Assembly: GCA_016873095.1 (NCBI GenBank)
Contig: VGYC01000005.1
Coordinates: 1-64,000 of the forward strand
Source: Planctomycetota bacterium
Lineage (GTDB): Bacteria; Planctomycetota; Planctomycetia; Gemmatales; Gemmataceae
Reading direction: 5' to 3'
DNA length: 64,000 nt
The first letter of the stretch is position 1. Each line of letters begins with the position of its first letter. Positions 27,816 to 32,960 of this stretch are shown in pieces. The notes beneath the pieces are model-generated. The model did no database searches and had not been told where the DNA came from. It worked only from the letters and a program-made list of their open reading frames with translations. The translations under genes were made by a program, and so were the position numbers.

Positions 27816-28763
27816 ATGGCAACAATCTTGTTACGAACCGGGCTGGCGATCTTCTGGGCATCGTTCGGCGTGAGCGGCGCCCCTGCGCAGGACAGCGGGG
27901 CCGCGAAGAAGCCAATCCACATCGGCATGGTGCGGAGTTTCCTCGGCGATGACAGGCCCAAGCTTGCATACCTATGGGACGGTCCAAAGAAGCTCAAGGT
28001 GCTCGGCAAGCTGTTCGGCGATTTTGTGCGTGAACAGACCGGCATCGACGGCAAGCTGGTACTGGGGGGCGACTATCGCCGGGTCGCCCGCCTGCTGGAC
28101 AAGAAGCAAATCGACGTCGGCATCATGCACGGTTTCGAGTTTGCCTGGGCCCAGCGAGAGTTTCCTGAGTTGCAGCCGTTGCTGATCGCGATCTACCGGG
28201 ACCGCAGCTTGAGCGCGCACCTGGTGGTGCGCCACGACTGCCCGGCGACAAGCGTCGCCGACCTCAAGGGTGGCGCGCTGGCGTTGCCTATGCGCACCAA
28301 GGGGCACTGCCGATTGTTTCTGGAGCGGCTCTGCCAGGCCGCCGGCGCTGCCGAACCGAAGTCCCACTTCAATGTCATGGAACGCTGCGCAAACGTTCGC
28401 GCCGCGCTGGATGAGCTTGTGCAAGGCAGCGTCGATGCGGCGGTGGCGGACGGCGAGTTCCTGCAAAGCTACGCGCAGCTAAAGCCCGGCTGTTTCGAGA
28501 AATTGCGCATCCTCGCCCAGTCGGAGACGTTTCCGGCGGCAGTGCTCGTGCATCGTCCCGGAGTCATCGACCCACAAACGCTGCGGACCTTTCGCGATGG
28601 ACTGATCAAAGCGCATCGATCCATCACCGGGCGCGACCGCATGCTCATGTTCAAGATCGGCGCTTTCGAGATACCGCCGGTCGACTATGACGAACAACTT
28701 GCCGATATCCGGAGCGCCTATCCGCCGCCCGGCGCAATCACTCTCGTTGGCGCCAACAAGTAG
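27816..28763 (+). CDS. PhnD-like periplasmic substrate-binding protein
   Basis: A 315-residue exported protein with signal peptide MATILLRTGLAIFWASFGVSGAPA. It matches the phosphate/phosphite/phosphonate binding-protein (PhnD) fold, with IHIGMVRSFLGDDRPK, then DYRRVARLLDKKQIDVGIMH, then HLVVRHDCPATSVADLKGGA, and SVDAAVADGEFL. No permease or ATPase gene is adjacent, so it may serve as a signalling or orphan binding protein. Its promoter is sigma-54-type, which suggests nutrient-stress control. An octamer repeat separates it from the vWA gene, about 135 bp downstream; co-transcription is possible. Confidence 0.88.
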   Translation: MATILLRTGLAIFWASFGVSGAPAQDSGAAKKPIHIGMVRSFLGDDRPKLAYLWDGPKKLKVLGKLFGDFVREQTGIDGKLVLGGDYRRVARLLDKKQIDVGIMHGFEFAWAQREFPELQPLLIAIYRDRSLSAHLVVRHDCPATSVADLKGGALALPMRTKGHCRLFLERLCQAAGAAEPKSHFNVMERCANVRAALDELVQGSVDAAVADGEFLQSYAQLKPGCFEKLRILAQSETFPAAVLVHRPGVIDPQTLRTFRDGLIKAHRSITGRDRMLMFKIGAFEIPPVDYDEQLADIRSAYPPPGAITLVGANK

Positions 28764-28764
28764 C

Positions 28765-28812
28765 GTTCTCGCGTCCTCGCGTTCTCGCGTCCTCGCGTCC
28801 TCGCGTTCTCGC
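28765..28812. repeat. 8-bp tandem repeat, six copies
   Basis: The unit GTYCTCGC occurs six times without interruption, immediately after the binding-protein stop codon. The variable base is T or C. Flanking TAGC appears at both ends. It lies outside any reading frame, so copy changes would alter only the spacer. Confidence 0.92.
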
Positions 28813-28899
28813 TAGCGGCCGCATTCTTGTTGAACTTCACCTGGCAATTGTTATGATGCGAGACATCGAGGCCCCAAACTGGAGAGGGAGATCCGCATC

Positions 28900-29739
28900 A
28901 TGCCCTATGCCGCCGAAATCAGCCGCACCAACCCGTCGTGCTTCCTGTTCTTGCTGGACCAGTCGGGATCGATGTCCGATACTTTTTCCGGCGGCAGCAA
29001 GAAGAAGGCCGACGGTGTGGCCGACGCCATCAACAAACTGCTGCAGACGCTGGTGCTGCGCTGCTCGAAGTCGGAAGGCGTGCGCGATTATTATCATGTC
29101 GGCGTCATCGGCTACGGCAAGAAGGTCGGTCCGGCGCTGGGCGGCAACCTGGCCGGCTTCGGGCTGGTCCCCATCAAGGTAATCGCCGACAACCCATTAC
29201 GCATCGAACAGCGCACACGCCACAGTGACGACGGCGCCGGCGGCATCCTTACCCAGACAGTCAAATTCCCCGTCTGGTTCGAGCCGGTCGCCCACGGCCA
29301 GACGCCGATGTGCGAGGCCTTCGACCAGGCCTGGCACCTGGTCAGCGCGTTCATCGTCCAGTTTCCAGGCTGCTACCCGCCCATGATCGTCAATATCACC
29401 GACGGCGAGGCGAGCGACGGCGACCCGACGCCGCGCGCGGGCATGGTCCGGGACCTGGCCAGCACGGACGGCAACGTGCTGCTGTTCAACGTGCATATTT
29501 CCGCGTCGGCCAGCCAGCCAATCTTGTATCCAGACCGGGAAGCGTCCTTGCCGGACGAATTCGCGCGGTTCCTGTTCCGGATATCGAGCCCACTGCCGCC
29601 GGCGATGCTGCAAGCTGCCCGTCGCGACGGGCAAGCGGTCAGCGACGCCAGTCGCGGCTTCGTCTTCAACGCCGACCTGGTGTCGCTGATCAAGTTTCTC
29701 GACATCGGCACGCGTGTATCCGACAAAAACCTACGCTAG
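28900..29739 (+). CDS. vWA domain-containing protein (TerY-like)
   Basis: A 279-residue cytoplasmic protein with a von Willebrand factor A fold. The metal-ion-dependent adhesion site is DQSGSMS near residue 20, with the Thr/Asp pair supplied by VNITDGEASDGD near residue 165. HVGVIGYG and QTPMCEAFDQAWHLV lie between. The C-terminal half has no added domain. In TerY-P systems a TerY-type vWA protein works with a PP2C phosphatase and a kinase; the next two genes here fit that pattern. GGGAGA precedes the ATG. The stop is 11 bp before the phosphatase gene. Confidence 0.9.
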   Translation: MPYAAEISRTNPSCFLFLLDQSGSMSDTFSGGSKKKADGVADAINKLLQTLVLRCSKSEGVRDYYHVGVIGYGKKVGPALGGNLAGFGLVPIKVIADNPLRIEQRTRHSDDGAGGILTQTVKFPVWFEPVAHGQTPMCEAFDQAWHLVSAFIVQFPGCYPPMIVNITDGEASDGDPTPRAGMVRDLASTDGNVLLFNVHISASASQPILYPDREASLPDEFARFLFRISSPLPPAMLQAARRDGQAVSDASRGFVFNADLVSLIKFLDIGTRVSDKNLR

Positions 29740-29750
29740 CCGGGAGGATC

Positions 29751-30491
29751 ATGGAAGCGCGATCCGTGTGGCTCCCCAAGCGGGGGCATTCGCTGGATGA
29801 ATACGAGGATGCCGGCGCAGCCGATCCGGCGCTGGGCCGTTTCGCCATCGCCGACGGCGCCACGGAAAGCTCCTTTGCCGGCCCGTGGGCCCGCCTGCTG
29901 GCGGACGGCTTCGTCAGCGCCGCCGGGCCGCAACCCGGCCGCTGGTCCGACTGGCTGCCAGCGCTTCAACAGCGCTGGCTGGAACAGTTTCGCGACAAGG
30001 AGCTGGCCTGGTATGCGGAGGCAAAGCTGGAAGACGGCGCTTTCGCCACGTTTCTAGGCCTGACACTCTGCGCGCCGACGGGTTTCTTTATGGAGCGCAG
30101 GAAATGGCACGCCGTGGCCGTCGGCGATGGCTGCCTGTTCCAGGTTCGCGACAACGAACTTTATCGACCGTTCCCGATCGAACGCGCCGAGGATTTCGGC
30201 AACACGCCCTGGCTGATCGGTTCGCGCAACGATTCGTCGAAGAGCCTGCGACAAAAGGAGCTGCGCGCCAAGGGCGACTGGCGGACGGGCGACTGCTTCT
30301 GGCTCATGACCGACGCTCTGGCGCAGTGGTTTCTTACCGACATCGAGGCTTGCGGCACACCCTGGACCAAGCTCGAGGCGGTCCTGGGCAGCGACGATTC
30401 CCAGGAACGGTTCGCGGACTGGGTCGAGGATCAACGCGATCGGCAGGCGCTTAAGAATGACGATGTCACGTTGATTGTCGTCAACGTGTAA
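29751..30491 (+). CDS. PP2C-type protein phosphatase
   Basis: A 246-residue soluble protein of the PP2C/SpoIIE phosphatase group. The metal-binding motifs are AIADGATESSFAGPWA (the Asp-Gly motif near residue 27), AVAVGDGCLFQVRDNE near residue 122, and KNDDVTLIVV near the end. GDCFWLMTDALAQWFL carries the Asp of another metal motif. It would remove phosphate from Ser/Thr residues, most simply those put on by the kinase encoded next. GGGAGG lies directly upstream of the ATG at 29751. It is the middle gene of the vWA-PP2C-kinase triad. Confidence 0.85.
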   Translation: MEARSVWLPKRGHSLDEYEDAGAADPALGRFAIADGATESSFAGPWARLLADGFVSAAGPQPGRWSDWLPALQQRWLEQFRDKELAWYAEAKLEDGAFATFLGLTLCAPTGFFMERRKWHAVAVGDGCLFQVRDNELYRPFPIERAEDFGNTPWLIGSRNDSSKSLRQKELRAKGDWRTGDCFWLMTDALAQWFLTDIEACGTPWTKLEAVLGSDDSQERFADWVEDQRDRQALKNDDVTLIVVNV

Positions 30492-30527
30492 GAGCCTGAC
30501 GTGCCTGCTGAGGGCTGCGCGACTCAT

Positions 30528-30586
30528 GTAGCAGGGAATTCCGATTCCGTGCGTGCATTTCGCACGGAATCGGAATTCCGTGCTAC
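30528..30586. repeat. inverted repeat between PP2C and kinase-WD40 genes
   Basis: Two 26-nt arms (30528-30553 and 30561-30586) pair with one mismatch around a 7-nt loop. The arm contains GGAATTCCGATTCCGTGCG, typical of Gemmata-type intergenic palindromes as I recall. It is not followed by T's, so a rho-independent terminator is unlikely. It may uncouple the kinase from the phosphatase, or act as a mobile palindrome. Confidence 0.85.
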
Positions 30587-30620
30587 CTTGACGGCGCAGC
30601 TGCCATTAGAGAGGTTCGCC

Positions 30621-30692
30621 ATGACCTGGCCGGAGAACACCGATTACAGTGAGGCCATCTAGAATCCACGCGTCAATCTGGCCGACCCGGAG
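30621..30692 (+). pseudogene. interrupted N-terminus of the kinase-WD40 gene
   Basis: An ATG at 30621, with GAGAGG upstream, opens MTWPENTDYSEAI, then TAG at 30660-30662 stops it, and the same frame resumes NPRVNLADPEL into the kinase. As I recall, related planctomycete kinases read AIQNP at this point, so the stop probably comes from CAG to TAG. The downstream gene would then use a TTG at 30693 or an ATG at 30723. Confidence 0.7.
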
Positions 30693-32960
30693 TTGCAGCA
30701 GGGCGAGGCGGTCGCCACTGCCATGGGCATGCCCATCGTCCGCTCCGGCAACTTCGCCGATGTCTACGAGGTCCGCTGTCCGTCCGGCCATGGCTACGCC
30801 GTCAAGTGCTTCACCCGCGAAGTCAAGGACCTGCAACAGCGCTACCTTGCCATCAGCGATCATCTGAACCAGGTCGCGCTGCCTTTCACCGTTGATTTCC
30901 AGTACCAGGAGAAGGGCATCCTCATCAAGGGCGGCTGGTTCCCGATCCTGAAGATGCGCTGGGTCGAGGGACTGACGCTGAACCGCTTTGTGGACGAGCA
31001 TGCGGACAAGCCACACATTCTCGAACAACTCGCGCAGATGTGGGTTAAGCTGGCGCACAAGCTTCGCAAGGCAAACATGGCCCATGCCGACCTGCAACAC
31101 GGCAACGTGATTCTCGTCTCGGGAAAGACAGCCAGTTCGTTACGGTTGCGGCTGATCGATTACGACGGCATGTTCGTGCCGGCGCTGGCGCACACGGCTT
31201 CCGGCGAGGTCGGCCATCCTAACTTCCAGCATCCCGAGCGCATCGCCCAGGGCATCTACAACGCCGAGGTGGATCGCTTCTCGCATCTGGTCATTTACAC
31301 GGCGCTGCGTTGCCTGATGGCCGGCGGCAGGACGCTCTGGCAGAAATACGACAACAGCGAGACATTGCTATTTCGCGAAGCCGACTTGAAATCGCCGGGC
31401 GCGTCCGCGGTTTTTCAGGAACTCTGGCAACACCGCGACGCGGTGACGCGCACGCTCGCCGGCCACTTGATGCTTGCCTGCAGCGGCGGCCTTGCCAGCG
31501 TGCCGCTTCTGGACGACATTATCGTCAACGGCCACCCCGTGGAATTGACGTCTCAGCAGGCGCAGGCAGTCGCCAGCTTGCTGAACACGGGGAATGGCCA
31601 CGCGGCCTCGCCACCACCGCCTCCCGATGTCTACACAGCCGCGCCCGCGGAAACGGCGCCGGTTCCGGCACAAGCCCTCGCCTATGGCGTCAAGCCACCG
31701 GAAATCACGCCGGGGAGAGAACCCCTGGAATGGCTAACTTCGGCGCGCGAGGCAACCCGTGGCCATGCCGGGCGCACGGCGACCTCAGGCCGGCCGTCTC
31801 TGGCACAGCGGCAACAGCCGAATCGCGCCCGAACGCTGCAAATTGTCGGATTCACGACCCTGGGGCTGGTCTTGCTGGCGGTCGTCGTCGCGGTGGCGCT
31901 TCGCCCTTCGAGAGAACCCGACGAGCCCGTCGCGCACGCGCCGCCGCCGCCGATCGTAGTCCCGAAACCGCCCGACGTTCCTCCAGTCAGTTTTCCCGGC
32001 GGGCACCCTGGACTATCGGCCATCGCCATCTCGCCGGACGGGAAGACGGCGGCCACCGGCGGCGGCGGCTTCATCCGGACCTGGAATACCTCGAAACGGC
32101 TCAAGCTCCGGGAACTCAAGCTAACGCGCGACGGCACGCCGTATTCCGGTCGCGGCTGGCACTCGACCAACCGCAATGTCGCCTTTCTCGCCTTCGGAAC
32201 GGACGGCAGTGAGGTCCTGGCCGGCGCCGGCATGACCCTGCTGTTGCTCAGCCCGGACTCGACCTTTCTGCACCACAGCTTGCTTCCGGGCGGCGGTCAA
32301 ATTGTGGGCGGAAGCTACTATGGTGACCCGGATGCTCCCAAGGACCGGCCCAAGCCATTTGTCTATGCCCATAGTTCCGGCAGTTTCATTCGCTGGAACT
32401 GGCAAGATACGGCGGAGGGCAAGGGCCAGGTTGCAGCGGAACTCATCAAAACAGCGTTCACGACTGATGGACACAAGGCCCTGTGTGTGGATAACGGCGG
32501 TGGATCACCGGGTGTGCATCTCTGGGACGTGAAGAACGGCATGCAACTCGAGAAGCCTCCATTATCGGGAGCGCATGTTGCGCTGACGAGCGATGGCAAG
32601 CTGGCCATGTCGAGTGCGGTTGGTTTGTCGCGAACTCTGTGTTTCTTGCCCCTGGATGAGACGTTGCCCGCTGGAACGCCACCGAGCGCGCCGCGCGTGC
32701 CTGTACCGGACGAGATCACGGGTATGGCACTATCAGCCAACGGCAACCACGCCATCGCCACGACTGCAGACGGCAAGCTGCATCTATGGCATGTGCCCAC
32801 GCGCCAGGAAGTCATGCGGATGGACATCGATCGACCCAAGACGAATTCCAGCCCGCGCTGGTGGCACACGGTCGCGTTTGCGCCCGATGGCAAGCACATC
32901 CTGCTGGGGAGCGTGACCGGTGCGCTACAATGGATAACGTTGCCCAAGAATGCTCGGTGA
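30693..32960 (+). CDS. protein kinase-like / WD40 membrane protein, N-terminus broken
   Basis: From a TTG at 30693, 755 residues. The nucleotide loop is GNFADVYEVRCPSG and the ATP Lys is in YAVKCF. The catalytic loop is HADLQHGNVIL and IDYDG is the DFG counterpart, so catalytic Asp, Asn and metal Asp are kept. After a Pro-rich linker there is one membrane helix near residue 390 (IVGFTTLGLVLLAVVVAVAL). The C-terminal half has WD40-type repeats: SAIAISPDGKTAATGGG, VHLWDVKNG, KLHLWHVPTRQEV, VAFAPDGKHILLG. It is the third gene of the vWA-PP2C-kinase triad. A TAG at 30660 interrupts the better start at 30621, so the protein is made only from a weak start or not at all. Confidence 0.8.
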   Translation: MQQGEAVATAMGMPIVRSGNFADVYEVRCPSGHGYAVKCFTREVKDLQQRYLAISDHLNQVALPFTVDFQYQEKGILIKGGWFPILKMRWVEGLTLNRFVDEHADKPHILEQLAQMWVKLAHKLRKANMAHADLQHGNVILVSGKTASSLRLRLIDYDGMFVPALAHTASGEVGHPNFQHPERIAQGIYNAEVDRFSHLVIYTALRCLMAGGRTLWQKYDNSETLLFREADLKSPGASAVFQELWQHRDAVTRTLAGHLMLACSGGLASVPLLDDIIVNGHPVELTSQQAQAVASLLNTGNGHAASPPPPPDVYTAAPAETAPVPAQALAYGVKPPEITPGREPLEWLTSAREATRGHAGRTATSGRPSLAQRQQPNRARTLQIVGFTTLGLVLLAVVVAVALRPSREPDEPVAHAPPPPIVVPKPPDVPPVSFPGGHPGLSAIAISPDGKTAATGGGGFIRTWNTSKRLKLRELKLTRDGTPYSGRGWHSTNRNVAFLAFGTDGSEVLAGAGMTLLLLSPDSTFLHHSLLPGGGQIVGGSYYGDPDAPKDRPKPFVYAHSSGSFIRWNWQDTAEGKGQVAAELIKTAFTTDGHKALCVDNGGGSPGVHLWDVKNGMQLEKPPLSGAHVALTSDGKLAMSSAVGLSRTLCFLPLDETLPAGTPPSAPRVPVPDEITGMALSANGNHAIATTADGKLHLWHVPTRQEVMRMDIDRPKTNSSPRWWHTVAFAPDGKHILLGSVTGALQWITLPKNAR

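Follow-up and report, generated by a model that had tools for sequence, protein, structure and literature searches.

A TerY-P-type triad, probably of receptor-kinase form, with an in-frame stop codon in its kinase frame in a Gemmataceae bacterium

What kind of signalling system is encoded where a von Willebrand factor A (vWA) protein gene, a PP2C-type phosphatase gene and a protein kinase gene follow one another on the plus strand of contig VGYC01000005.1, from a planctomycete of the family Gemmataceae? We examined this trio within a window of 64,000 nucleotides (positions 1 to 64,000 of the contig, to which all coordinates refer); the source assembly is a draft of 548 contigs that is 95.5% complete. 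The locus is probably a stand-alone signalling triad of the TerY-P type in which the kinase has taken a receptor form, and its kinase frame carries an early stop codon as assembled.

Identity and recurrence of the trio

A preliminary description of this DNA had placed the three genes side by side and likened them to the TerY-P triad of tellurite and stress systems. Both the adjacency and the composition hold. The vWA gene (28900–29739, plus strand; 279 residues) matches the PADLOC model TerY (PDLC02224) over 274 of 277 positions with 345.4 bits, which sets the protein close to TerY rather than in an unrelated vWA group. The phosphatase gene, whose real start at 29751 lies 12 bp past the vWA stop, runs to 30491 (plus strand; 246 residues) and matches the PADLOC model PP2C (PDLC02222) with 117 bits and, just above the cut-off of 24, Pfam PP2C_2 with 24.6 bits. 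The kinase frame (30693–32960, plus strand; 755 residues from TTG 30693) matches STK_OB (PDLC02223) with 255.6 bits over its kinase part, and its Pfam Pkinase score of 26.7 falls below the cut-off of 31.7. From their consecutive numbers and their names we read the three models as one TerY-P system in PADLOC. Sequence comparison supports a TerY-P identity for the composition and order of the trio; an NCBIfam scan of the three proteins yielded no family beyond weak Bud32 matches.

Inspection of the three proteins reveals that the residues expected to matter are kept, as had been claimed for the vWA metal site and for the catalytic Asp and Asn of the kinase. The vWA metal-site residues Asp20, Ser22, Ser24, Thr135 and Asp168 are all present, and each is invariant among the relatives aligned there (94–95 of the 96 collected). 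A sequence search of the PDB with the vWA protein gave no match, and a plasmid search with it matched 2 of 72,556 records, both cyanobacterial. The phosphatase retains the metal-site residues Asp20, Asp35, Asp188, Asp237 and Asp238. The kinase domain (30726–31592, plus strand) retains Lys38, Asp133, Asn138 and Asp156, numbered from TTG 30693. The catalytic role of the β3 Lys in kinases is well established, and a profile of 23 triad-type kinases aligns Lys38 with the β3 Lys position of IKK-beta and ULK3.

The same three-part composition is annotated in Escherichia coli as YegL (vWA), PphC (PP2C) and YegI (kinase), and the window genes might be imagined as a module of that type. This we consider very unlikely. 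Similarity is marginal, with BLAST scores of 24.6, 20.0 and 18.5 bits against YegL, PphC and YegI, far from close kinship; YegL and PphC match no PADLOC TerY-P model, and YegI matches only other kinase models, weakly. In E. coli, moreover, yegJ lies among the three genes in the opposite orientation.

A tellurite (ter) stress operon is the other identity that the composition and the TerY-P name bring to mind, and the tellurite resistance association of TerY-P is stated in PMC11090510. The preliminary description had seen no TerD-type genes nearby, which is true both of the scanned flanks and of the whole genome: a genome-wide search returned 0 TerD matches at E 1e-3 in this 95.5% complete assembly (TerC was not searched for). 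Since no TerD gene was found in the genome, the triad is not a ter operon, and that reading is close to refuted.

Neighbouring genes are informative only if they recur. We searched 61 genomes of the window's family, Gemmataceae, keeping 42 vWA, 33 PP2C and 60 kinase matches after removal of vWA rows with E >1e-14 (3 rows), one second PP2C fragment and kinase rows with E >1e-27. In 33 of the 42 vWA matches a PP2C gene follows within 2.5 kb on the same strand, and the full triad, with PP2C and kinase both downstream, is present in 25 of the 42; related genomes therefore do keep the three genes as neighbours in this order. All 25 family genomes that carry the PP2C fall among the 26 that carry the vWA protein (Fisher p 3e-16). 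A second sample, from named genomes, comprised 70 distinct loci anchored on the vWA gene and was drawn from the best 80 of 177 matches with duplicates removed. By hand tally, PP2C is directly downstream in 66 of these 70 and PP2C plus kinase in 41, with the kinase upstream or divergent in several others. (A further 26 loci, retrieved through kinase matches, are biased, and the counts refer to distinct vWA loci.) The vWA-anchored loci span many phyla, among them Chloroflexi, Acidobacteria, Verrucomicrobia, Obscuribacterales, Myxococcus and Paenibacillus. Chance adjacency of the three genes was rejected because many genomes show them in the same order on the same strand. The suggestion of a planctomycete variant is too wide for the vWA protein, for which strong matches occur in 26 of the 61 family genomes versus full-length strong matches in 2 of 198 other genomes sampled from the phylum.

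Kinase architecture and its tails

How does the window kinase depart from the kinases of known TerY-P modules? The STK_OB match stops at position 304–305 of the 562-position model, leaving the OB-fold half unmatched, and in 10 other triad-type kinases it likewise ends at 267–308. The C-terminal OB fold of the antiphage TerY-P subtype was not found; the tail consists instead of a membrane helix and a WD40-like propeller, both of which had been noticed at the outset. The single predicted helix (residues 379–402; 31827–31898, plus strand) follows a Pro-rich, low-confidence linker, and the propeller (residues 426–752; 31968–32948, plus strand) scores 36.4 bits with Pfam WD40. An AlphaFold2 model of the kinase (24 sequences; mean predicted local distance difference test score 69.1, predicted template modelling score 0.49) shows a confident kinase domain, the linker, helix 379–402 and then the propeller, of which residues 469–582 are mostly of low confidence. 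An alignment of the propeller with VIA-align to the WD40 domain of PkwA (5yzv_D) gives Z 22.2 and a root-mean-square deviation of 3.1 over 252 residues, a fit that many WD40 proteins tie. Hydropathy and the charge pattern place the propeller, by prediction, outside the cytoplasm and the kinase domain inside.

The preliminary description took the membrane helix and the WD40 repeats as marks of a special form. For the helix this does not hold: hydropathy finds one in 76 of 96 kinases (window included), that is, in 36 of 41 family kinases and in 40 of 55 triad-type kinases outside the family, and transmembrane kinases have also been published for actinobacteria (PMC7159879). What is regular in the family is the layout. 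Exactly one helix is present in 34 of the 41 family kinases; among those 34, Lys and Arg are more numerous on the kinase side of the helix in 29, balanced in 5 and less numerous in none; and a median of 799 residues lies beyond the helix (33 uncut rows). Of the 55 kinases from outside the family, 24 have one helix, 16 more than one and 15 none. The WD40 tail, present in the window kinase, is one among several interchangeable tails and does not define the group. It occurs in 14 of 41 family kinases versus 3 of 55 others, with at least 14 changes on the kinase tree by a fewest-change count; Pfam WD40 alone is found in 12 of 38 versus 3 of 46, and Pfam tails outside the family include TPR, HHH, KTSC and more. 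The WD40 labels came from a small hidden Markov model trained on 15 repeats taken from these same kinases, and in the tail count the helix and propeller of the window kinase were labelled by hand, the helix being also computed and the propeller also found by the model. These figures indicate that the tail is often exchanged while the core of vWA, PP2C and kinase domain stays constant, so the domain make-up is conserved in its core and not in the kinase tail. Within Gemmataceae a one-helix layout is common, and the tails attached to it are interchangeable.

On the kinase tree all 41 family kinases and one more planctomycete kinase form one group (Shimodaira–Hasegawa-like approximate likelihood ratio test support 96); because the sample was drawn from the family, this shows cohesion and not origin. 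A separate observation concerns the β3 position (window Lys38, 30804–30806), where every one of the 41 family kinases has Lys and 46 of the 55 triad-type kinases from elsewhere have Arg, with 7 changes on the tree. The residue was read by pattern; five rows needed a second pattern or visual inspection.

The missing OB half also bears on whether the locus is a phage-defence module, in which the propeller would sense infection at the envelope and phosphorylation would trigger arrest or block phage growth. The vWA and PP2C proteins match models of a defence library, as does the kinase over its kinase part; TerY-P acts against T7-like phages (PMC7699616), kinase-OB modules are stand-alone antiphage systems (PMC11090510), and the occurrence of the trio across phyla is patchy. 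Against this, no OB tail like that of the defence form was found, and eight flanking open reading frames scanned for defence genes gave nothing beyond weak matches to DndA/SspA, which came from an ordinary aminotransferase-like protein. A defence role is possible, if on the unlikely side.

The stop codon and the state of the locus

Is this copy of the kinase still made? The preliminary description gave the kinase as a plain gene and overlooked a stop codon near its start. The start that agrees with relatives is ATG 30621, preceded at a distance of six bases by AGAGG, and the frame from there reads MTWPENTDYSEAI before it meets TAG at 30660–30662, codon 14; the segment 30621–30662 (plus strand) carries the conserved N-terminal kinase motif M-x-W-P-x3-D-Y-x-E-A-I-Q, which is strongly conserved in relatives. 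At the position aligned with the TAG, 92 of 99 relatives have Gln and four lack it; in three further relatives (L044, L108 and L126) the Gln is displaced by a small indel, as judged by reading the alignment. When the frame is read from 30621 across the TAG, the STK_OB score rises from the 255.6 bits obtained from TTG 30693 to 281.8 bits, with one TAG inside the match. Among the 60 strong kinase rows of the family, an internal stop is listed for the window kinase only. Not all three genes are therefore intact in this copy, a matter that concerns the copy and not the kinship of the triad. The normal kinase start is blocked in the assembly as it stands.

The TAG may reflect a recent loss or a sequence error, or translation may restart behind it at TTG 30693 or ATG 30723 (ATG 30729 is a further possible start). 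A sense reading of the codon is disfavoured: TAG also ends the window's vWA gene, and only 1 of the 60 kinase rows has an internal stop. A scan of the window for tRNA genes found none; no genome-wide search for a suppressor tRNA was made.

It is quite conceivable, although we lean the other way, that the locus is decaying, with the kinase a recent null marked by the TAG at codon 14 and by a hairpin in the gap before it, and with the vWA and PP2C genes left as remnants or as partners of two other kinases in the genome. The stop codon in place of a Gln that most relatives keep and the solitary position of the window kinase among the strong rows speak for decay, as does TTG 30693, which has no ribosome-binding spacing upstream. 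The source genome supplies a further point. It holds three triad-type kinases, two full vWA genes plus one vWA fragment, and one PP2C gene, that of the window; the second kinase (contig C31) has a vWA gene beside it and no PP2C gene beside it, and the third (contig C147) is preceded just upstream of its frame by a vWA remnant of ~60 residues (L038:5844-6020). The C147 locus is a partly lost triad. Against decay, the frame is open from 30663 to 32960 and the catalytic residues are all kept; with 755 codons open past the stop, any loss must be recent. A single base error is possible in a draft of this kind, and if translation resumed at TTG 30693 or ATG 30723, only the N-terminal motif would be missing and the kinase core would be preserved.

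The gap between the PP2C gene and the kinase holds an inverted repeat (30514–30600, plus strand; arms of 40 nucleotides, loop of 7, fold z-score −7.5) that resembles repetitive extragenic palindromic elements. The family to which it belongs is dispersed, matching at 10 other places in the source genome, and a search of 10 relatives found no copies. A terminator scan of the gap listed none, despite the very stable hairpin. The corresponding gaps of two other loci (L042 and L064) hold hairpins different from the window's. Directly upstream of the triad lies a gene for a phosphonate-binding-type periplasmic protein (27816–28763; Pfam PF12974, 80.1 bits), separated from the vWA gene by a tandem repeat of the 8-base unit GCGTYCTC (28763–28818). 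A scan for σ70-type promoters upstream of the vWA gene gave one weak match (28830–28857; 2 found in the region, 0.7 expected), on which we do not rely.

Several findings weigh against a stand-alone receptor-kinase triad. The TAG argues against a working kinase in this copy. Confidence in the structural model is modest, the topology is based on hydropathy and charge, and the charge bias of the window kinase is slight, 3 versus 2 Lys/Arg. When flanking open reading frames were compared with 39 family loci, none recurred with the triad except one in 2 loci. Neither a ligand or substrate nor a conserved downstream effector was found. Half of the strong family kinases (30/60) have no vWA gene within 7 kb upstream, and 13 of the 42 family vWA genes have no downstream kinase, some of them lying at the end of a contig and others being arranged differently; the three are hence not obligate partners. 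A stand-alone TerY-P-type triad in receptor-kinase form nonetheless remains the reading that we judge probable.

Proposed switch and comparison with known systems

If the triad works as its parts suggest, the vWA protein (a metal-site adaptor), the phosphatase and the kinase would form one reversible phosphorylation switch. The kinase domain would lie in the cytoplasm, joined by the linker and one membrane helix to the WD40-like propeller outside the cytoplasmic membrane. The propeller might respond to damage of the envelope, to a partner at the surface or to a ligand, and so alter kinase output; the vWA protein may bring kinase and substrate together, and PP2C would reset the switch. In the present copy the normal kinase would not be made as assembled, with vWA and PP2C intact, and the other two kinases may be served by the window PP2C, the sole one found in the genome.

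On a broader conjecture, which we hold to be doubtful, many lineages share TerY-P as a switch whose sensor tails can be swapped. The Gemmataceae kinases would be envelope receptors that have the canonical β3 Lys, cross the membrane once and carry very large domains on the outside; a genome would hold several of them, sharing few PP2C proteins or a single one. The β3 Arg of most other phyla would mark kinases that are perhaps atypical or weak, hence a different chemistry, and the window kinase would have just been lost, its phosphatase serving the sister kinases. TerY-P modules have so far been tied to phage defence and stress, and a single-pass receptor kinase with a large outside domain would offer a natural handle on their input: the outside domains could be expressed alone and screened for ligands, phage surface proteins included. 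The β3 Lys/Arg split, for its part, yields a prediction of which TerY-P kinases truly transfer phosphate. Among the papers listed by a literature search, none describes a TerY-P receptor form in its title or at the beginning of its abstract.

Gao et al. reportedly described, in 2020, the antiphage TerY-P module with an STK-OB kinase. The window resembles that module as a stand-alone trio whose vWA protein, PP2C and first ~300 kinase residues match the PADLOC models. It differs in having a helix and a WD40-like propeller in place of the OB half and a TAG in the kinase; stand-alone antiphage TerY-P modules carry the OB-fold kinase (PMC11090510). The same source describes TerY-P in Type II and III-A CoCoNuTs, which shares a TerY-like vWA protein, a PP2C and a Ser/Thr kinase with the window, but there the kinase has a zinc ribbon and restriction genes are present. 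The window kinase shows no zinc ribbon family, and the eight flanking frames include no defence neighbours. Decayed TerY-P clusters are described in Helicobacter pylori (PMC4978471).

Actinobacterial GTPase systems have kinases with transmembrane helices beside PP2C and vWA genes (PMC7159879). In the GAP1-N2-associated set the kinase may carry such helices, with PP2C and a stand-alone vWA protein adjacent, as in the window; unlike the window triad, which stands alone, that set is embedded in a GTPase-centred system. The same paper calls the GAP1-N2 theme restricted to actinobacteria. As a side observation, a GAP1-N2 GTPase-associated cluster that includes kinase, vWA and PP2C genes is present in Gemmataceae (L168:1-18001, genome G055), and similar spacing is seen in G015, G027 and G032:C20, with GAP1-N2 confirmed by Pfam in L168 only.

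Two other known proteins pair a kinase with a propeller. PkwA of Thermomonospora curvata joins a kinase part to a WD40 tail that is the best fold match for the propeller, and it is not known to belong to a triad. PknD-type receptor kinases of Mycobacterium, which differ in having an NHL propeller and in belonging to another kinase family, display the arrangement predicted here, a cytoplasmic kinase joined by one transmembrane helix to a propeller outside.

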